Below, one piece after another: positions 25,240-38,053 of a stretch of DNA of 64,000 bases; position 1 is the stretch's first letter; each line of letters begins with the position of its first letter. The stretch is from positions 1 through 64,000 of the forward strand of contig CASICJ010000001.1 in assembly GCA_949373085.1 (NCBI GenBank), read 5' to 3'. The position numbers and the translations under genes were made by a program. The notes under the pieces were generated by a model. That model was not told the origin of the DNA and searched no databases. It saw only the letters and a list, made by a program, of their open reading frames with translations. The DNA is from an uncultured Verrucomicrobiales bacterium (GTDB lineage Bacteria; Verrucomicrobiota; Verrucomicrobiia; Verrucomicrobiales; Akkermansiaceae).

Positions 25240-27108
25240 CTATTTAACGGAGTTGCTAGTCCCAAGCAAGTCATTGACGGCCTTGTTGGCAACCCGGACG
25301 ATATATTTATTGGGTTGTTTCTTGAGTGTCTTTTGAAGTGCTGGAAGGGCGGGGCGGGCTTGCTCATCGGCTTCATCGAGGGCGATAGCGGCGTGCAAGC
25401 GAGACCATTCTTCGGGCGATCCTAGAGACTCGGATAATTCAGAGAGGGCTTTTTCCTCTCTGGTCTTCATTCGGAGAAGGGCACGGGCTGCGGCGATTCT
25501 GACGACGGTGGAATTTTCTTTCTCCAAAAGTCCTAGGCAGGCGGTCGTGGCTTCTTTCGATGCCTTGCCGATGTTTCCGATCCCAGTGGCGGCCCAGTAA
25601 CGGACGGCGGCGTCATGGTCTTCTAAACCTTTAAGGAGATCGGGAAGGACTTGCTCGCCTTCGGATGCGAGGGATGCCATGCGGCCAAGTCTCTCGGGAA
25701 GAGTTTTGTCGTTAGCTTTAGCGAGGATGTCGTAACGGGAGCTTGCCTTCTTTTCGCGCAAGACCATTTCAGGCTCAGGGATGAGGCCAAGGTCGCGGGT
25801 TTCCTTGATCCACTCCTTGTGGATCTTTCTGAACTTATCGAGCTGCTTCTTGTACTTTGGGTCGTCGGCAAGGTTGTTAATTTCGTGCGGATCATTCTGG
25901 AGGTCGTAGAATTCTTCGACGGGTTTACGATCGGCCATGAAGAGTCTCATGGCGGCGGGCATTTTTCCAGTGGCTGCAACGCGACGAAGCTCCATCATAG
26001 TGGCTCCTTTCTCAGGAGTATTCATGTATTGGAAGTAAGGCTTGAGAGGTTCGTAGTTACGGATATAGCGGTAACGCCTGTCGCGAACGCTACGGATGAT
26101 GTCGTAGCGTTCGTCCATACGGTCACGGGCTCCGAAAATGTAGTCTCGGGGTGGAGTCAATTTCTTGCCAAGGAATGCACGGCCTTGGGTGATGGGGGGC
26201 GTGGGAAGTCCGGCTAGGTTGAGTGTGGTAATTCCAAAATCGAGAGAGCTAATGAGTTGCTCGTCAACCGTTCCTGGTTTGCCTTGGCCGGAAGTGCGAA
26301 ATTTTTCGGGGATTCGAATGATGAGCGGAATCCGGGTGCCAGAATCGTAAAGCCAGCGCTTGGCGCGAGGAAGGCCAACACCGTGGTCGGACCAGTAAAC
26401 TATGATAGTGTTTTCGTATTCTCCCGCTTCCTTAAGAGCAGCGATGTGGTCGCCGACCCACGCATCCATGGCTGTGATGAGCTCGTAGTTCCTTTTCCAG
26501 TCTTCTCGAACTTTCGGGGTATCCGGGTAGTAGGGCGGAAGGGTTTTTAACTTGCGGGGATCTTGTCGTTCGCCGGGTGAGAGGTTCTTGGTGACGGTCT
26601 TGTATTTTGACTCTCCAGCGATTCCACTTTCGTGGCAACCGGTGAAGTTAAAGACAGAAAAGAAGGGGGCTTTTTTGTCGTTTGAGTTTTTCCAATGCGC
26701 CTTGCTGCTACTCGCGTCCCAGGTATCTTTTGGAGCTTGGAATTGGTAGTCGGTCTTTGAATTGTTGGTGCAGTAGTAGCCGGATTTGCGAAGGTAGGTG
26801 GGGAAGGGTTTGATGGAATTTGGAAGGACGGCACTGCTCCGCATATGCATGGTGCCGATGGAAGTCTGATACATGCCGGTGATGATGGTAGATCGGCAGG
26901 GCGCGCAAACTCCGGCGGCGGTGAAAGCATTGGTATAGCGGACTCCTTCCTTAGCTAGCTGATCAAGGTGAGGGGTAATGGCGTTTGGGTCACCATAGCA
27001 GCCAAAGTGGGCGTTGATATCTTCGGCTGAGAGCCAGAGGATGTTGGGGCGTTCATTGGCATGTAGAGTCGCGTAGACGCAGAGTATTAAGAGTAAGATA
27101 GATTTCAT
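25240..27108 (-). CDS. secreted sulfatase with C-terminal HEAT repeats
   Basis: 622 residues with a signal peptide (MKSILLLILCVYATLHA). The alkaline-phosphatase-fold sulfatase domain has metal ligands in WLSAEDINAHFG and the catalytic C-x-P-x-R motif as VCAPCRSTIITG near residue 67. The Cys should be converted to formylglycine by FGE or anSME encoded elsewhere. The other metal site is in YWSDHGVGLPRAKRW. After about residue 480, HEAT-like alpha repeats (AAVRYWAATGIGNIG, SRLHAAIALDEAD) are appended, possibly for protein binding. It probably acts in the periplasm on sulfated glycans. It pairs with the second sulfatase upstream on the same strand. Confidence 0.9.
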   Translation of the reverse strand: MKSILLLILCVYATLHANERPNILWLSAEDINAHFGCYGDPNAITPHLDQLAKEGVRYTNAFTAAGVCAPCRSTIITGMYQTSIGTMHMRSSAVLPNSIKPFPTYLRKSGYYCTNNSKTDYQFQAPKDTWDASSSKAHWKNSNDKKAPFFSVFNFTGCHESGIAGESKYKTVTKNLSPGERQDPRKLKTLPPYYPDTPKVREDWKRNYELITAMDAWVGDHIAALKEAGEYENTIIVYWSDHGVGLPRAKRWLYDSGTRIPLIIRIPEKFRTSGQGKPGTVDEQLISSLDFGITTLNLAGLPTPPITQGRAFLGKKLTPPRDYIFGARDRMDERYDIIRSVRDRRYRYIRNYEPLKPYFQYMNTPEKGATMMELRRVAATGKMPAAMRLFMADRKPVEEFYDLQNDPHEINNLADDPKYKKQLDKFRKIHKEWIKETRDLGLIPEPEMVLREKKASSRYDILAKANDKTLPERLGRMASLASEGEQVLPDLLKGLEDHDAAVRYWAATGIGNIGKASKEATTACLGLLEKENSTVVRIAAARALLRMKTREEKALSELSESLGSPEEWSRLHAAIALDEADEQARPALPALQKTLKKQPNKYIVRVANKAVNDLLGTSNSVK

Positions 27109-27163
27109 TTTAATAGGGTGCGTTTTTATGTAAGCTTATGTGGTTTGTTAACGCTTGTTGCTA

Positions 27164-28552
27164 TCAGTTCTGGAGATCGTGGCCGGAGTGGCTTTCTAGC
27201 ACTGATTTTTGCCAAGCTGTGAGCTGCTTTTGCATTTTGAAAAATTGCTTGGGTTCTTGCTCGTTGAGCGTGTTGCTTTCCGTAGGATCTCTGGATAGAT
27301 CATAAAGCTCCCAAGTCGTTTTTTTCTTGCTGAAAATGGCATGAATTTTGAATGGCCAATCGAGAAGCGCTGCGTGGCCACTCTGATGGGAACTAGCAGT
27401 GTATTTCGGGAAATTATTGACGTTTTTAAAAACTCGTTCTGTAAAAGGATTAGGCTCTCCCCCTTGCTGTGCTTCCATGAGCTTTTTGATAATCTGGTCG
27501 CTCCGGGTTGATTGTCCTCCGCTGAAATTATGCCAGAAGCCAATGGGTTTGGGACGTTTATTTTCTTTTCCTTTAAGAAAAGGGAGAAGATTGATTCCAT
27601 CGAGTGGAGGTTGATTCTTAACTTCGGTCTTCGTCAATGCGAGGAGCGTTGGATAAATATCGGTCGAGCTTGTGGGAGCGGATATGCGGGTTGGTTCGAA
27701 TTCAGACGGGTATTCGATGATGGACGGAACTCGAAGACCACCTTCATAAACCGAGCCTTTCTTCTCTCGACCACCGGAGAATTCCTTCACGAGCCCTCCA
27801 TTGTCTGACGTATACCAGAGGAGAGTGTTATTTGCGATTTTGAGGTCTCGAAGGGTCTTACGAAGCCTGCCTATCTGTTCGTCAATTAAGGTAATTTCTT
27901 GGTAGTAAGAGGCATGAGGCTTCCCTTTGTAGAGACCTTGAGTGGATGAGGTTTCTCGATGGGGGACGTGTGGTGAGGGAAACCAAATGACGGAGAAAGT
28001 AGGTTGTTTGGAGCTATAAGCTTTCAAATGGGCGAGGGCGTGATCCATTATGATGACAGTGCCTTGGCCTTGAAATTGTTGGAATTTCCCGTTGAGCGAG
28101 AGATACGGCTCCCGGTCGAAGAAATTCAGCCCGCTAAGCCAGTGTTCGAAACCTTGGCCGCCTGGCGAGGTGGGACTCTCTTTCTGAACTGATCCGATGT
28201 GCCACTTGCCGAAGTGAGCGGTCAGGTAGCCGTTTGTTTTTAAGGCTTCGGCGATGGTAGTTTCATGAGGGCGGAGATAGTGTCCGTGGTTGGGAACGTT
28301 GACACGTACAGGATTACGACCAGTCATAACGCTAGCGCGGGTGGGCGAGCAGACGGGTGCACCAGCATAGAAGCGATCGAAGACGATCGAGTTTTGAGAC
28401 ATGGCGTCGAGGTTGGGGGTTTCCACATAGGGATGACCAGTGAATCCGCAGTCCCCGTGGCCTTGATCATCGGCCATAATGAGTATGATATGTGGTCGGT
28501 CAGCGGCGCGTAGAGAAACGAAGACGCAAATAAAGAGGAGGAAATGTTTCAT
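27164..28552 (-). CDS. secreted sulfatase (arylsulfatase type)
   Basis: About 462 residues from ATG 28552, with signal peptide MKHFLLFICVFVSLRAA. The active-site motif is CSPTRASVMTGRNP near residue 70, and metal ligands are in ILIMADDQGHGD and WYTSDNGG. It has no HEAT extension. A GTG three codons upstream (28561) is a less likely start. It lies 55 bases upstream of the HEAT-sulfatase and directly downstream of the cytochrome/CBM6 gene, as expected for a sulfated-polysaccharide degradation unit. Glycan specificity is not readable. Confidence 0.9.
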   Translation of the reverse strand: MKHFLLFICVFVSLRAADRPHIILIMADDQGHGDCGFTGHPYVETPNLDAMSQNSIVFDRFYAGAPVCSPTRASVMTGRNPVRVNVPNHGHYLRPHETTIAEALKTNGYLTAHFGKWHIGSVQKESPTSPGGQGFEHWLSGLNFFDREPYLSLNGKFQQFQGQGTVIIMDHALAHLKAYSSKQPTFSVIWFPSPHVPHRETSSTQGLYKGKPHASYYQEITLIDEQIGRLRKTLRDLKIANNTLLWYTSDNGGLVKEFSGGREKKGSVYEGGLRVPSIIEYPSEFEPTRISAPTSSTDIYPTLLALTKTEVKNQPPLDGINLLPFLKGKENKRPKPIGFWHNFSGGQSTRSDQIIKKLMEAQQGGEPNPFTERVFKNVNNFPKYTASSHQSGHAALLDWPFKIHAIFSKKKTTWELYDLSRDPTESNTLNEQEPKQFFKMQKQLTAWQKSVLESHSGHDLQN

Positions 28553-28564
28553 CAATGGCACTTG

Positions 28565-31113
28565 TTATTCGAAGTGGATCCAGTCGAGGTTTACGAGATG
28601 TTGTTTGCCGGGATTTGTGAAGGTGAGGCGAAGGTCGACGAGCCCGTCGGGTAGGTCTATGAGGGGGACAGTCATTTCCTCCCATTTGTTCCAGTCGCCA
28701 GTGGGTTTGATTTCAGCAGCAGCAACCTTTTTACCGTTAGCGCTGATTGTGATTTTTGCGCCCGCGCCCCCCGAGGCGTAGCGGACGGAGAAGTTTTTAC
28801 ATTCTTTAATCCGGAATCCGGGGTATTCGATCCAGTGAGAGTGATTAATTGCTCCAACGAATTTGAGGCCTTCACCATCGAAGATTTGGGGGCCTTTGTG
28901 AGAGGAGAAATTTTCAGCTTCAATGGTGCGCGGGTGGAGTCGAATTGAGGTGCCACCTGAAAGCGGAGTGGCTTTGCCTTCATATGCTCCGAGGTCGGTG
29001 AAAGTTTGCGGATAGCTCGAGTGATTGATTCGTCGCTTGATGGCATCATATTCCCCTTAACGCCGCGAGAGACTTGCGGTGTGTTTTTCTCAGAGAGAGA
29101 GTAGATCCACCGAACCATGGATGCGACTTGGTTACGCTTAAGATTCGGATGCGGAAGCATAGGGATTTCGCCCCAGACCTTCGAAGAGCCCTTTATGACC
29201 CTCTCGACAGAGCTATCAAAGGCTGCTGCGTCGCCTTTGTAGCGCTTGGCGATGTCGTTGAACGAGGGGCCGATCAGTTTTTGCGAAGCATGGTGGCAAT
29301 TGAAGCAGTCGGAGGCACGAATGGCGGAGAGGCCGGGAGAGACTTTAGCGAGAGGAGCTAGGGTCACTACGGTTGAAGCGAAGGAATTCGGCTTTAACCT
29401 CGAATCACCTTCCTCATAGTCGTGGATCGGCGAGGCGATATTCGACTGGTTTTCCTAGGAGTGAAAAAGGATCCGTCGAGGGGTGATTCGAAAGGCGAGT
29501 TTGGGCGGGGAGTTCCCGGCGCTGACGTATTGGGTGAACTCATTGGTAGCGCCCTGCGCATCTGTGACATTCAAGGTGATGGGGTGGTCTCCGGGCTCAG
29601 TGAAAATAAGCGTGGTTTCTGGGTTAGTTGAGACGGCCTTTCCATCTTTAAGCCAAGCGAATTTTAAAGATGTGCCTTCAGGGTCTTTGGAAACAGAGCC
29701 ATCAACTTTTATCTCGAGGGGAAGGGGGCCATTCTTTTTGTCGATCGTAAATTGTGCGACTGGGTCGAGATTCCCATGGCGGTAGCTGATGTGGAGAAGT
29801 TTGGCGTCCTTGTTATTTCCCCATGTGGCTCCGTAATCGATGAACCAAAGGGTCCCATCGGGAGCAAAAAGAGCGTCGGAAGGTCGTTTGATTTTGGCAG
29901 GGATTGAAAAGTTTTCGATGCCGACAAGATCTTCATTTTTATTAAGTCTTCCCCACTTGATAAAAGGACGGTGCCAGTCCCAGAAGAGAAGGCAGTGATC
30001 AAATTCTTTAGGGAAACCTCCTGTTTTCTCGAACTTAGGACTATAGTGAAAAACTGGGCCGGCGCAGGCGGTACGGCCTCCTTTTTTGAGCTCAGGAAAT
30101 TCTTCTGAATCTGCGTATGGATAAAAGATTAAGGCTGGCTGAGGTGGGGGAAGATCTTTTCGACCGGTATTGAGGGGTGAATCATTAATAGGCTTTTGAA
30201 GGTTGAATTCCTCGCCAACTTTGCCATCCGTAAAGTCGACACGAGAGTAGGGTTTGTTGTCGGCAATAAAGTAGGGCCAGCCGAAGAATCCAGCTTTACG
30301 GGCTTGGTTAATTTCGTCGTATCCCCGGGGTCCTCGCGGTCCGTCTTTTCCAGCATCAGGTCCAACTTCCCCCCAGTAAAGGTGGCCTGACTTAGGATCG
30401 ATGGAGAATTTCCAAGGGTTGCGGCAGCCCATCACGTAGATTTCGGGGCGTGTACCTTTGGTTCCGGGGGGGAAGAGGTTGCCCTCAGGTATGGTATAAC
30501 TTGCATCGGGTTGCACCTTGATGCGAATCAATCCGCCGCGAAGATCGTTGGGGTTAGCGGAGGATTTCTCGGCATTCCATGGTTCTCGATTGGGGCGTCG
30601 ATCGATGGGTGCATATGATGCTGAGTCACCAAAAGGATGAGTGTTGTCTCCGGCAGAAGCGAAGAGGCAGCCGCTAGGACCAAATTTCAGCATGCCACCG
30701 TGGTGGCAGCATTCACGGCGTTGGGTATTCCATTCGATGACTTTTTTCTCATTGATGAGAGTCTTCTTTTTGATTGTGAAACGGCTGATTCGCTGTCCGA
30801 TGAAATCGGCGGGTGAATAGAGAAGGAAGAGGTGGTTGTTCTCCATGAAATTTGGATCGAGCGCGATGCCGAGAAGTCCATTTTCTTGCTCCCCGAACAC
30901 TTCGATTTCAGCAAGGGTGGTCCGCTCTCCAGTTGTAGGATGAATCCGGCTAACCTTGCCCTGAAGTTCGATGAGGTAAATTGAGCCGTCAGGCCCTAGG
31001 TCCATCCCCATGGGGCGCGCGAAGTCTTCCGCGATGGTTTTGACTTCGAAGCGGTAGGGGTCGGCCGCTGATACGAATGAGGGAATGAGTAAGAAGAGGA
31101 GTAGAAAAGGCAT
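28565..31113 (-). pseudogene. glucose/sorbosone-dehydrogenase-like, PKD, cytochrome c and CBM6 protein, four frameshifts
   Basis: Reassembled across frames this is one 848-residue secreted protein. It has a signal peptide, then a glucose/sorbosone dehydrogenase beta-propeller (about 20-450, MDLGPDGSIYLIELQGKVSR), a PKD domain (about 455-545), a cytochrome c (CFNCHHASQKLIGPSF) and a CBM6 module (RTIEAENFSSHKGPQIFDGEG to LDWIHFE). The frame changes at about 29481, 29456 and 29430 (one extra base each) and at 29053-29056 (one G missing from a GGGG run). The reading LDGSFFTP, then GKPVEYRLA, then IHDYEEGDSR restores continuity through the apparent UAG at 29455. The role is probably periplasmic sugar oxidation in the sulfatase locus. 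Error or decay cannot be told apart by eye. Confidence 0.8.
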
Positions 31114-32407: not shown

Positions 32408-35400
32408 TTATTTCCAGATAACATTGCGAATGGGCTGAGCGGCTTTTGTTTTTACTAGAGCAGCTTCTACTTCCTTTGTGAACTTGGAGTCAGGTGGGGC
32501 GATGTTCGTGAGAAGCTTGAGCTTCTTGGTAGCTTCTTCAAAGTTGCTAAGGTTGGCTTGGGCGTAGGCTAGGCTGAGGAGGTGGTTGGCGTCGCGGTTT
32601 TTGGAGATCAGGCAGAGACGGGAGGCGAGAGCGAGAGATTCCTGCGGTCTACGGACTTTTTCCCTAGGATGGGTGGAAAGGATTCGCGAGAGGAGGTTAG
32701 CAGCCTTGAGGAATTTAGGTGAAGTCCCGAGAATAGTTTTGCAGTTGGCGATCGCGTCTAAAGGTTGTCCTTGTTCGAGTTGAAAAAGGACGAGGCGGTG
32801 CCGTAAATTAGGATTTCCAGGGTTGTTGTCAGCTGATTTTTTTTTGTAGTATAACCCTAGCGTAGGGTTTTTGGTTTTGAGTGCGATATTGATGGCGTCA
32901 TCGTAGATATCTAAGTTCTGAGGGTGGTAGGATATCGCGTCGTTGAGAATCGCGAAGGATTTTGAAAAATTGCCTGTTTCAGCGTGGGCAGTCGCAAGAA
33001 GGCGCAGAACGCGAATATCTTTGGGAAGGATTTCGTTAGCGGCCTCGAGCTGAGGAATGGCTTCGGCTGGCCGACCTTGCTGTCCCAAGATTTGGCCGAG
33101 AAGTAAAAGATTGTCGCTTCGGGTGAATTTTTCACCTTGGAGAAAGGGCTTCGTAAGAGCTGAGCGGAGGTAGTTGATGGCGAGGTTGGGCTTGGCACGT
33201 TGGAGTAGTTGTTGAGCTGTGCCTTGGGGGGAAGACGCTGCAGGCTTGCTGGTCCAGCGTCCTGCAAAGGGTGAACCGGCAGAGCGACGTTCCAAGGGGG
33301 ATGCTGTCGCGAATTTGGTGTCGTTAATGATTTGCTCGATTGAAGCGATACCTCGATAAATGGCGAGGAGCTGTCCTTCCGTGGAGACTAGGAAGCTCGT
33401 AGGAACGGGAATGGGGATCCAAAGGTCAATGATGGAAGCGTGGAGGGCGTCGAGTAGCTCTACGGCTTCGGGGCCAGCCATCCTGGTAGCGAAGGGCGAG
33501 TTGATAGACTTAAGGTAGGCATTGGCTTGATCGTAGTGTTCTTGGTCGGTGCAGAGGAGTTCGAGGTTAATGTTCGATTTTTTAAACTTGGCAGCTTGGT
33601 TGGTCCAACTTTGAAGTTCTTTTTGGCAGTGCGGGCAGGTGCGGCTCCAAAGCGCGATTAGGGTGGTTGCAGAAATGGAGAGGGGTTCGCCAGCAGCAGT
33701 GAGTATATTTGGGAAGGTGTGGCCTGCCGGAGGAATGATGCGCGCGACCGATTTTTTTTCGGGGGTCGGGTGTGGTGCTGCTATGAGATTGGGATTTCGT
33801 CGGGTTTTGCGAGGGGTGACGGTTGCTACACCTTGGATGAGATAAAGTTTTTGGTTAGCCTTAATGCCGTTGAAGGTTTGCGATTTCGAGCCGGGCCAGT
33901 GGACCACTACTCTTTCGATGACGGCATCTTCACCAAGGCCAAAGTGTAGCCAATGGGATGATTGGGCTAGAAAAGATTGGCCGGCGTGGAGGGTGCGGAT
34001 ATGAGGGACTAACTGTTTTTTAAGATGGACTTCGACACGAGCTCCAATGGCATCTCGCGGAGTTGTTTTGGCAGAACCGGTGAGGTGAAGTGAGAGGAAG
34101 TTTGACTCAGATTTGAGGTTGTTCTTTAGGAGTCGGACACGAGGAGCAGTGCGGTTTGTGACAAAGAGATCAAGATCACCGTCGTGATCGTAGTCAATTA
34201 GTCCGATGGCGCGGGCATCATCTTCAAAGTCCCAGCCAATGGCGCTGGAAACGTCGGCGAAAGGGCTGTTCTTACCGCAATTAAGGAAGGCGTTGTTTGT
34301 TTCGCGTCCAGAAAACGATTTATTTTCGTGAAGGAGACGATTGAGAGCCAGCCAACCTTGACGGTAGGATTGTAGCCTAAGATCGTCACCTTGGGGAGCG
34401 GTAGGAGATTGCGACACGACCTGTCGCCAGTAGACACTTCATAAATCACCAGTGTCTTCGGCGGTGACAAAGCCGTTCGCACCAAGGATATCGAGCCATC
34501 CGTCATTATTGAGATCTGCAAAAGTAGATCCCCAGCACCAGCGTGCCATATTGGTTTTTGTTTGAATAGAGAGATCGGTAAAACCACCTTTTCCGTTGGC
34601 GGCGAAGAGGGAGTTTCCACGAGCCATACGTCGGAAGGTGCCGGCGGCGTTTTCGTCGTGCTCAAGTTTTTTAAGGAAGCGATTTTGTTCCGTGACTCGG
34701 CTTCCAGCGCTTGAGAACATATTGGAAACGTATAGGTCCATCCAACCGTCCCTATTGAAGTCACCCCAGTTGGTCGACATACCGGCGGCAGAGTCTTCGA
34801 TGCCAAGAGGGCCGGCAATGTTGATGAAGAAAGGGAGCTTCCCGGGTTCGACTCCTTGATTTTGGTAGAGGCAGTTCCGGCCGAAGTCGTTTGCTAAGTA
34901 AAGGTCGAGGTCTCCGTCTTGATCGTAGTCTTCCCAGGAAGCGGCAAAGGAAAATCGGGTGTTGTTTTGGTTGAGGCCAGTTTGTTCAGTGACGTCTTTG
35001 AAGGTCCAGTCTCCGTTGTTTCGCCAGAGGATGTTTTGGCCTCCGTTGTTAGCGTCGTGGAATGGAACGGGCTCGGCGAGGGCTCCGGCTCGTGCTGAAG
35101 ATGCCGAGGGGTTGTAGCCGCAAACGTAGACGTCCACGAAGCCGTCTTGATCGAAGTCAGCGGAGGTGAGGGAGAAGGATTGAGCTTTGGTAGAGCGACC
35201 AAAAGCAAGTTCGAAGTGGCCTTTGCCGTCTATGTTGTCCATGAAGAGAATTTTGAAATCTTGTGAGATAACGAGGTCCTGATCACCGTCGTTATCGAAG
35301 TCAAGGAAGAGGGCGGCGGCGCAGTAATCGAGCCAGTCAGTTTTTGATTCAATAGAGAAATCGGTGAGCGTGCCATCAAGATTTTGTAAGAAGAGAAGAT

Positions 35401-36172
35401 TAGGGAGCCCACCTTGTTGGCAGAGGTAAAGATCTTCGAGACCGTCGCCATTTATATCGGCTATTGCCAGGCCGTGGTTTGCAGCAGAATCGAGTCCGAA
35501 ATCGCGCGGGATACGGCTGCGCCAGTGGTCGGTTGAGCGGAGAAGCTGGGATTGATAAGAAGGATTTTGATTGAAGGCGGAAGCTGTGACATCGGTGAGA
35601 AGTTGGCGATTACTGGTCTGCTCGACTTCTTCAAATTCCTTAAGGGTGATGGTCTCTAATCTAGGGGGAGAGGTTTCTGTCCAAGAGCAGGTCCAATGAG
35701 CGTTGATTTGGAGGAGAGGGGATTTGAGGGTGACGAGCGAGTCCGAGGATTTGGAGGTAACCGAAATCATCTTAATCTTGGTTTTAAAGTCAGGTTCCGC
35801 GCGTGATATAATTGCTGAATAAGGTATTTTGGTCGTATTTTTAAAAATTCTGCGAACGATTAGCCCGGCGTTTTTAAAGACGATATTAGTTTGAGGCTTG
35901 AGGAGCTGTGCGGATTTAAAATTTGTTGTGATATGCTCGGTTTTCCGCTGGTGGAGGAGGCTATCGAGGAAATTTTCGAGGATTATTTGGTATTCCGATG
36001 ACTTGGCTTCGGATTCCCATCCGTCTTTCGTGGGATCGATACGTTCGTAAGCATCAGCGAGTTCTTCCTGATATTGCCGATTTTTTAGCCCGGGATTCGG
36101 AGATGTTGCTCCGGATTGACCAAAAACCATCGTCGCGAGGGTCGATATTATGCCAATAACTGCTGCTTTCAT
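32408..36172 (-). CDS. CRTAC1-type FG-GAP / ASPIC-UnbV / thioredoxin-like / TPR protein with in-frame UGA (candidate selenoprotein)
   Basis: One 1254-residue frame interrupted only by a UGA at 34439-34441 (codon 578 from ATG 36172; a GTG precedes it). Signal peptide at 1-18. FG-GAP/VCBS Ca-binding loops (DINGDGLED, DFDNDGDQD, DYDQDGDLD) run from about 240 to 575. After the UGA comes VYWRQVVSQSP, then another DYDHDGDLDLF loop, an ASPIC/UnbV domain (about 650-780), a thioredoxin/TlpA-like domain with CPHC (about 840) and TPR-like repeats (about 980-1240). Both halves are needed for the usual CRTAC1 layout, and they share one frame, unlike the indel-broken genes nearby. With the hairpin after the UGA, selenocysteine insertion is likely. 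A plain nonsense mutation remains possible. The protein should be exported. Confidence 0.75.
34411..34441 (-). promoter_or_regulatory. candidate bacterial SECIS element
   Basis: In the mRNA, 11 nt after the UGA, GCGACA pairs perfectly with UGUCGC around a GGUCG loop, so the loop starts 17 nt after the UGA. In E. coli fdhF a GGUC loop closed by an A-U pair starts 18 nt after its UGA (from memory of that element). The hairpin is encoded by the codons for WRQVVS. No clear bulged U of the E. coli kind is visible. Confidence 0.6.
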
Positions 36173-36325
36173 CACTAGATCAGATTGTTGTGGCTCTGGA
36201 GGGTTGTCCAGTCTGGAGCATTCTTCATGAAAAGTTAGAGAGAGGATGGCTCGAAACGCGCTTGTAAGATTGCAAGGTTAGCGCAATGTTACCGCGAGGT
36301 TTTCTTAGCGCCTTTTTTGTTTCAA

Positions 36326-38053
36326 ATGAATTCTCCGATTGTCATTCCAGAAAATGCCCCGTTTAGCGCCGAGCAACGTGCTTGGCTAAGTGAGTTTTTA
36401 ACCAAGGCCTTGGGCGACTCGTCAGTTGAGGTTGAGTCACCCGGGCCGGCGATTCCTGTCACAATTTTGTGGGGGAGTCAGACCGGGAATTCTGAGGGTG
36501 TCGCTAAAAAGTTTCTCAAAGGCCTCAAATCAGGGAATTATGAACCGCAAGTTTTTGATATGGCTGCTTACGACAAAGGTAGGTTGCCGACAGAAAAGAA
36601 TCTCTTGGTGATTACAAGCACCTACGGTGATGGCGAGCCACCCGATAATGCCTCTGATCTTCACGAATATATCATGGGCGAGACTGTCCCTAGCCTTGAA
36701 GGTGTTAATTTTTCGGTCTTTGCGCTCGGTGATAGCGAATATCCTGACTTCTGCCAGTGTGGTATCGAATTTGACCAACGTCTCGAAGCCTTTGGAGCAA
36801 AACGAATTTTTAAGCGTATTGATTGTGACGTCGACTACGACGAGCAATTTGCAGAGTGGAAACAAGGGGTCATGGAGGCTATGGGCGGCAGCAGCAGGGC
36901 TCAGGAGGCCGATGAAGTTGTCGTGGAGGAACCTTTTGGTAAAAAGAATCCTTTCCCTTCACCTCTGCTGAATTCCTACGATCTTAATAAAGAGGGATCG
37001 GCACGTGAAACCTATCACGTGGAGCTTTCTCTCAAGGATTCTGGCTTGGAATATCAAGTTGGTGACGCTCTTGGCGTGCTTTCTCACAACCCGGCTCAAG
37101 TTGTGGATGAGATCCTTCCTCTCCTTCCTTTTAATGTGAAGGATGACGTGCCACTCCCGAGCGGAGCTGAGGGTTCACTCCGCGAGGCCTTGATCACATC
37201 TTATGACATTCGTAGTCTTAATAAGAGACTTCTAAAGAGTTGGTCAGAGCGATCTGGTTCACCTTTTCTCCGCGCTCTTGTCGAGAGCGGGAGTAGAGAG
37301 GAGATCGAAGAATTCTGTTGGGGCAGGGAATTGATTGATTTGATTAACGATCATCCGGCTGACTTTGCAGATGGGGAGGAATTTGTAGGTGTGTTAAAAA
37401 AACTACAGCCACGCCTCTATTCAATTGCCTCCAGCCCAAATGCTCATCCTGGCGAGGTTCATCTGACCGTAGCAATCGTTCGCTATAACTCTCATGGTCG
37501 AGATCGGGGTGGGGTTTGCTCCACTTATCTTTCGGATCGAGTCGGTGATGTTTGTTCTGGAATTTTTGTTCATAACAACAAGGCTTTCCGTCTGCCCGAA
37601 GATCATTCTAAGGATATAATTATGGTGGGGCCGGGAACAGGGATTGCTCCGCTTCGTGCCTTCCTTGAAGAGCGCGAGGTTTCGAAAGCAAGCGGCCGTA
37701 ATTGGCTTTTCTTTGGGAATCCTTTTCGGGCCACTGACTTTATTTATGAAGACGAAATTAATGCTTGGGTTGAAAATGGCACACTAACCAAACTTGACCT
37801 AGCCTTCTCTCGTGATCAGGAAAATAAAATCTACGTTCAAGATCGGATGCTGGAAGCTGGAGCCGAACTCTGGGACTGGCTGGAGGGAGGGGGATACTTC
37901 TATGTTTGCGGCGATGCTTCCCGAATGGCGAAAGATGTGGATAAGGCCCTTCAGACAATTTTGAAGACCCATGGTGGTTTGAGCGACGAAGAGGTGGTAG
38001 ACTATCTCAAGAAGCTCAAAAAAGAAAAGCGCTACGCTCGCGACGTTTATTAG
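36326..38053 (+). CDS. cysJ: sulfite reductase flavoprotein (CysJ)-like diflavin reductase
   Basis: 575 residues from ATG 36326; the frame opens three codons earlier at a TTG. Flavodoxin domain at about 45-190 (ILWGSQTGNSEGVAKKF, STYGDGEPPDNA, FALGDSEYPDF). FAD-binding domain with RLYSIASSP at about 365 and GVCSTYLSD. NADP-binding domain with MVGPGTGIAPLRAFLEER at about 435, ending in the family's RYARDVY. In assimilatory sulfite reductase CysJ passes NADPH electrons to CysI. No cysI is adjacent, so another acceptor is possible. Confidence 0.85.
   Translation: MNSPIVIPENAPFSAEQRAWLSEFLTKALGDSSVEVESPGPAIPVTILWGSQTGNSEGVAKKFLKGLKSGNYEPQVFDMAAYDKGRLPTEKNLLVITSTYGDGEPPDNASDLHEYIMGETVPSLEGVNFSVFALGDSEYPDFCQCGIEFDQRLEAFGAKRIFKRIDCDVDYDEQFAEWKQGVMEAMGGSSRAQEADEVVVEEPFGKKNPFPSPLLNSYDLNKEGSARETYHVELSLKDSGLEYQVGDALGVLSHNPAQVVDEILPLLPFNVKDDVPLPSGAEGSLREALITSYDIRSLNKRLLKSWSERSGSPFLRALVESGSREEIEEFCWGRELIDLINDHPADFADGEEFVGVLKKLQPRLYSIASSPNAHPGEVHLTVAIVRYNSHGRDRGGVCSTYLSDRVGDVCSGIFVHNNKAFRLPEDHSKDIIMVGPGTGIAPLRAFLEEREVSKASGRNWLFFGNPFRATDFIYEDEINAWVENGTLTKLDLAFSRDQENKIYVQDRMLEAGAELWDWLEGGGYFYVCGDASRMAKDVDKALQTILKTHGGLSDEEVVDYLKKLKKEKRYARDVY

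Follow-up and report, generated by a model that had tools for sequence, protein, structure and literature searches.

The closest described relatives of the protein considered here are cartilage acidic protein 1 (CRTAC1; PDB 9etn) and the bacterial ASPIC/UnbV proteins, in which an FG-GAP propeller precedes an ASPIC/UnbV domain, and the thioredoxin-like proteins TlpA, ResA and DsbE, whose domain carries a CxxC motif. FG-GAP repeats are of the calcium type. The nearest described RNA element is the selenocysteine insertion sequence (SECIS) of E. coli fdhF, a stem with a GGUC-type apical loop that carries a bulged U. In the DNA analysed here (hereafter the window: 64,000 nucleotides, positions 1 to 64,000 of contig CASICJ010000001.1, assembly GCA_949373085.1, from an uncultured Verrucomicrobiales bacterium of the Akkermansiaceae), counterparts of all these elements occur in one minus-strand gene with a single in-frame UGA, which, as judged from its relatives, almost certainly encodes selenocysteine (Sec). 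We consider it very probable that the product is a CRTAC1-type selenoprotein, probably exported, whose Sec is decoded from the UGA and appears to work with a thioredoxin domain fused to the same chain.

An in-frame UGA and its downstream hairpin

Translation of the minus-strand frame 36172-32408 yielded 1254 residues with a single internal stop, the TGA at 34441-34439, preceded by ...AEDTGDL and followed by SVYWRQVVSQSP..., confirming the first-pass annotation, which had described two halves of one FG-GAP/ASPIC protein that share a frame and are separated by the UGA alone. The features concerned are as follows.

32408..36172, minus strand: whole selenoprotein gene, 1254 codons plus stop, delimited with the help of full-length relatives with one TGA
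36172, minus strand: ATG start codon, with GTG at 36175 as a possible alternative
34439..34441, minus strand: in-frame UGA, read as the probable selenocysteine 578 on the strength of TGA in 153/153 distinct relatives with a stop at the site
34411..34427, minus strand: bacterial SECIS-type hairpin, with a 6-bp stem (34422-34427 with 34411-34416) and the loop GGUCG (34417-34421)

The UGA is a conserved property of a protein family. Of 144 related genomes searched at E <= 1e-30, with up to 4 candidates scored in each, 49 contained the family, and most of the long matches had exactly one TGA. When the open frames of 201 loci were scanned for the motif D-[LIMVF]-x-[ST]-x-x-W-[RK], outside which the cysteine-containing relatives described below fall, TGA occupied position x in 121 of 123 matches (102 distinct), the remaining two being chance matches away from the site. 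A wider pattern over 319 loci, limited to members with a stop codon at the site, returned 153 distinct members, and in every one the stop was TGA (TAA 0, TAG 0); D stood at -2 in all 153, a residue that the pattern did not demand, and R at +5 in 149, so that the consensus DL-U-S-x-x-W-R holds in nearly all members. At the DNA level, DL-TGA-S-x-x-W-R matched 3 to 24 times per genome in 15 chosen genomes, reaching 17 in one genome of the window's own taxonomic family and 24 in one Planctomycetales genome, compared with a single match in total for the reversed control (of these genomes, G508 duplicates G060, and a few matches look unlike the family).

The hairpin that the first-pass annotation had placed behind the UGA was recovered exactly on re-reading of the sequence: a 5' arm GCGACA (34427-34422), a loop GGTCG (34421-34417) and a 3' arm TGTCGC (34416-34411), with 11 nt between the UGA and the 5' arm and 17 nt between the UGA and the loop. 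It satisfies the loop, stem, spacing and minimum free energy (MFE) rules for bacterial SECIS elements (bSECIS) published in PMC13188914 (loop of 3-9 nt, G in the first two loop positions, stem of >=4 bp, spacing of 16-37 nt, MFE <= -7.5). The same rules were passed by 138 of 150 distinct segments that follow the site UGA, as opposed to 84 of 893 in-frame positions elsewhere in these genes. In a synonymous-codon null, for which the codons of 82 distinct 36-nt segments were swapped for synonyms, the mean stem was 2.0 bp against 6.0 bp observed, and the loop read GGTC in 73 of the 82. Across relatives the arms change in compensatory fashion (GCGACA/TGTCGC, GCGCCA/TGGCGC, GAGGCA/TGCCTC, GCGCAC/GTGCGC, GCGTGC/GCACGC); over the six stem positions 448 of 492 cells were paired, exceeding the maximum reached with re-dealt 3' letters (427 in 1000 trials) and with a slid partner (334). 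A natural control came from non-Sec relatives, 13 of the 14 examined keeping [ST]xxWR with a stem that averages 2.8 bp (range 2-5): in these sequences the predicted hairpin disappears with the UGA though the protein motif stays. Akin to the fdhF SECIS and the bSECIS consensus, the window element is a stem with a GGUC-type apical loop, here 17 nt after the UGA and inside the 16-37 nt rule; it differs from fdhF in that its loop, GGUCG, is closed by an A-U pair and in that the bulged U is missing. A scan of the whole window against Rfam at gathering thresholds gave zero matches.

The genome is equipped for decoding: selA (483 bits), selB (317.8 bits), selD and a tRNA-Sec (53.6 bits, anticodon UCA) are all present. 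The selD gene has an in-frame UGA of its own in CGG-U-ASK, which we take to be the known Sec/Cys position of SelD. It is split over two frames in the draft (L019, 1480-1760, with L018; G000:C8:1589-2519), the in-frame UGA being followed by a later frame change that could reflect either faulty assembly or a genuine break. Among the 144 related genomes, selB exceeded its curated cut-off in 38 of 42 with the TGA family compared with 29 of 102 others; among 392 genomes of Planctomycetota, the phylum of a Pirellulales genome in the analysis, it was found in 94 of 108 family genomes compared with 141 of 284 others, family genomes here being counted with any residue at the Sec column. The first-pass proposal that the UGA specifies Sec is thus supported by the conserved codon, by the hairpins downstream of it in relatives and by the sel genes. 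Decoding by SelB and tRNA-Sec would be aided by the hairpin just downstream, as its conservation suggests.

A probable Sec-bearing propeller with its own thioredoxin domain

The remaining features of the protein, all on the minus strand, are listed here.

36116..36172, minus strand: residues 1-19, a probable signal peptide on visual inspection
34463..35473, minus strand: propeller FG-GAP repeats on the upstream side of the Sec site, spanning approximately residues 234-570 (Pfam PF13517; model)
33845..34051, minus strand: ASPIC/UnbV domain, residues 708-776 (Pfam PF07593, E 3e-18; murine CRTAC1 9etn)
33368..33664, minus strand: TlpA/ResA-like thioredoxin domain, residues 837-935 (AhpC-TSA match; fold and PDB matches)
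33626..33637, minus strand: CPHC redox motif, C846 and C849 (sequence; alignment of members)
32750..33109, minus strand: TPR repeats, about residues 1022-1141 (Pfam scan)

Both the FG-GAP repeats and UnbV_ASPIC score above the Pfam cut-off, which places the protein among the CRTAC1/ASPIC-UnbV proteins. The AhpC-TSA match (E 6e-4) lies below its curated cut-off; the fold of this part matches ResA and TlpA, and a CxxC is present. Part by part, the best solved matches by sequence were CRTAC1, engineered TPR proteins and ResA. An AlphaFold model of residues 185-975, computed with Cys in place of Sec, is confident, with a mean predicted local distance difference test score of 93.2 and a predicted template-modelling (TM) score of 0.94; it has the Sec site, its residue 394, at the beginning of helix 393-404 in the propeller part. 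Its best PDB match was again murine CRTAC1 9etn (E 3e-27, root-mean-square deviation 5.5 over 625 columns, TM 0.70 target-normalised and 0.50 query-normalised), with ResA and TlpA among the next; identity to CRTAC1 is 16% only, and the window protein adds the Sec segment, the thioredoxin domain and the TPR repeats. Unlike in TlpA, ResA and DsbE, the thioredoxin-like domain here, with the CxxC in the form CPHC and with PDB and NCBIfam matches to that group, sits behind a selenoprotein propeller. From the UGC-containing TlpA selenoproteins in the 2026 inventory of PMC13188914 the protein differs in that its Sec lies outside the thioredoxin motif. The signal peptide suggests that the protein is probably exported.

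The Sec site and the thioredoxin motif go together across the family. The two thioredoxin cysteines are kept in 48/48 and 47/48 long Sec members, and 84 of 85 distinct Sec proteins have CxxC, compared with 1 of 12 non-Sec proteins (counted from 108 rows, of which 7 were dropped for an absent region, namely the contig ends L065 and L120 and the five Sec proteins L185-L188 and L201, and 4 near-copies were merged). All 12 non-Sec proteins retain the thioredoxin domain itself (E 1.5e-12 to 4.5e-45). Because retention of Sec and of CxxC goes hand in hand, as does for the most part their loss in non-Sec relatives, a redox relay between them is likely in our estimation, the simplest reading of the co-loss being that once Sec is gone CxxC would no longer be needed. 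In such a relay the Sec of DL-U-S-x-x-W-R, at the helix start seen in the predicted model, would most likely provide the catalytic selenol in an extracytoplasmic redox enzyme, and the thioredoxin domain of the same chain would most likely recycle the oxidised Sec, or exchange electrons with it, through its CxxC. Our confidence in any named substrate is low.

Alternative readings and points of weakness

Ten distant relatives (L192-L196, L198, L233, L234, L314, L315) have Cys at the Sec column, within DYC[ST]x[FY]W; all fall to one side of a branch supported at 100, across a long branch from the Sec family, and part of L193, the one checked for domains, matches FG-GAP and ASPIC. In 14 nearer non-Sec relatives with the segment preserved, the column holds E (4), A (4), Q (2), D (1), S (1) or R (2); in still other relatives it holds D, F, L, I or another residue, or the segment is missing. 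The expectation of the first-pass annotation that homologues would show Cys, or UGA with hairpins, at this column was therefore borne out for the distant and the close relatives, respectively, and failed for the 14 nearer ones. Mapped onto a tree of 97 rows, built by a quick method and rooted at its midpoint, the three labels require 5 changes, the simplest reading of which would be a single Sec origin with several losses; for the 12 full-length non-Sec proteins the tree suggests about two losses, L302 and the clade of the other 11 (support 81). These proteins (L300-L311), paralogues whose column holds E, A, Q, D or S, may be decommissioned or binding-only forms. Several of the genomes that hold them also show family matches with one TGA.

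Several of our observations weigh against a Sec enzyme coupled to its own thioredoxin. Replacement by E, A, Q, D, S or R instead of Cys in the nearer relatives is unusual for selenoproteins, and selB is still present in each of the 11 genomes from which the 12 full-length non-Sec proteins come, so that Sec replacement does not follow merely from lost machinery. In the other direction, selB falls below thresholds in 4 of the 42 family genomes (G005, G008 and G015, which are 65-88% complete, and G138, whose family match is weak) and in 14 of the 108. Taken alone, the window hairpin could be due to chance (-9.3 kcal/mol, z -1.13; equally good folds in 23 of 200 dinucleotide shuffles); 12 of the 150 segments fail the bSECIS rules on their MFE structure, and in folding energy just 25 of the 82 rank in the top 5% among versions recoded with synonyms (mean z -1.6). 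The significance of the hairpin accordingly comes from the comparison with relatives and not from single-sequence folding. As to the thioredoxin, the five Sec proteins L185-L188 and L201 end soon after ASPIC and have no C-terminal thioredoxin, so that a fused partner is not always needed; L303, basal in the 11-member clade, lost Sec yet kept CxxC; and the Fisher p of 1e-12 for co-loss overstates the case, since only about two tree events underlie it. Selenium insertion itself is deduced from sequence.

Among the alternatives, the one that survives best, which we nevertheless regard as unlikely, accepts the UGA as Sec and assigns it to structure or metal binding within the propeller, with no relay to the thioredoxin. 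The location of Sec in a propeller with calcium-type repeats, the five Sec proteins that have no C-terminal thioredoxin and the D or E at the column in 5 of the 14 nearer non-Sec relatives are in keeping with such a role, but it sits poorly with the absence of CxxC from 11 of 12 non-Sec proteins that have retained the thioredoxin domain, and with the position of Sec at a helix N-terminus, which is typical of a redox selenol.

Far less probable is that the UGA is read through with an ordinary amino acid, or that it is a true stop giving a short propeller and a separate or minor second product. The second half does have a possible GTG start of its own at 34417, but a stop at the UGA would drop conserved propeller sequence and the ASPIC domain, and neither version accounts readily for site stops that are TGA in 153 of 153 distinct cases and never TAA or TAG, for a hairpin that fits the bSECIS rules and vanishes with the UGA, or for a family whose presence tracks selB. 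UGA also ends 8 of 38 chosen open reading frames in the window and hence serves as an ordinary stop too; a reassigned genetic code was rejected on this ground. Finally, a pseudogene or sequencing error, in which the UGA would be a nonsense mutation or a miscalled base in one draft genome, can be dismissed almost outright: the draft is indeed fragmented (72 contigs, 81.1% complete), with selD and the family copy on C36 in pieces in different frames and indel-broken genes reported in the window by the first-pass annotation, but 153 distinct relatives, drawn from many independent assemblies, have the UGA at this site, with up to 24 motif matches in one genome, and the protein is conserved on both sides of it.

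Family expansion, neighbouring genes and significance

The first-pass annotation treated the gene as a single one; it is one member of a large multi-copy family. Profile and pattern searches combined gave 12 sites in the window genome, among them C36:48570, a copy with pieces in different frames. Some Verrucomicrobiota and Planctomycetota have multiple family copies, as many as about two dozen. In the window's phylum 9 of 387 genomes matched at E <= 1e-60 with 2 candidates scored per genome, 7 of the 9 without a TGA match, and this sparseness indicates that the family is concentrated in some lineages; in a draw of Planctomycetota it was found in 108 of 392 genomes.

In several genomes a recurring pair of Sec motifs, one on each strand and separated by about 1.7 kb, point towards each other (G000:C36:48570(+)/50284(-); G025:C121, G016:C146, G026:C268, G068:C50). 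Two or three TGAs occur in some relatives, namely L316 and matches in G550, G722, G861, G560, G535 and G843. In L316 two further TGAs lie 21 and 25 codons past the Sec site and are candidate second Sec sites, and in L317 (G843) a further TGA lies 367 codons past it; possibly such extra codons are second Sec residues, gene ends or damage.

In the window the gene is divergent from a cysJ-type sulfite reductase flavoprotein gene (36317-38053). A divergent cysJ was found in 11 of 17 loci examined, all 11 near orthologues, and was absent beside the gene in the other 6, which are distant relatives; the arrangement may simply reflect synteny and gives no firm indication of function. Elsewhere in the window are two adjacent sulfatase genes (25240-28561), the copy at 25240-27108 having HEAT repeats, and a gene for a glucose/sorbosone dehydrogenase-like protein with a PKD domain (29455-31113) beside a small cytochrome c gene (28672-29367).

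Apparently the family is unlisted among known prokaryotic selenoprotein families. The 2026 review PMC13188914 gives 119 prokaryotic selenoprotein families or subfamilies in its Table 1, and that table has no ASPIC/UnbV, FG-GAP or CRTAC1 entry. NCBIfam selenoprotein models did not match the window protein; among 53 aligned members, 20 weakly matched NF041054 (WAxxUGC_long) and one matched NF045694 (TsoB), both thioredoxin- or redox-type by name. We found no report of Sec in CRTAC1, FG-GAP or ASPIC-UnbV proteins in one open-access library; supplementary candidate lists, such as that for two Planctomycetes, could hold the family. The authors of deep-Sep state as a limit of their own tool that close Cys homologues are needed, and Sec-finding programs that rely on such homologues could miss a Sec-propeller family. 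If our reading is correct, the family would have been missed so far because search methods depend on close Cys homologues, which are mostly absent here; gene prediction that takes every UGA for a stop would split these genes, so that the family is probably misread in databases.

Taken together, these results lead us to favour, with some reserve, an undescribed and greatly expanded selenoenzyme class, exported by Verrucomicrobiota and Planctomycetota, in whose members a calcium-type beta-propeller would carry a catalytic selenol recharged by its own fused thioredoxin. Sec would thereby be placed in a propeller fold outside the 2026 inventory, tied to a thioredoxin motif by co-loss and replaced in nearer relatives by E, A, Q, D, S or R instead of Cys. 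If true, this would be the first Sec site in a CRTAC1-like propeller fold and would point to a major use of selenium by these bacteria, for which the family would offer a concrete test system for the role of exported selenium enzymes.
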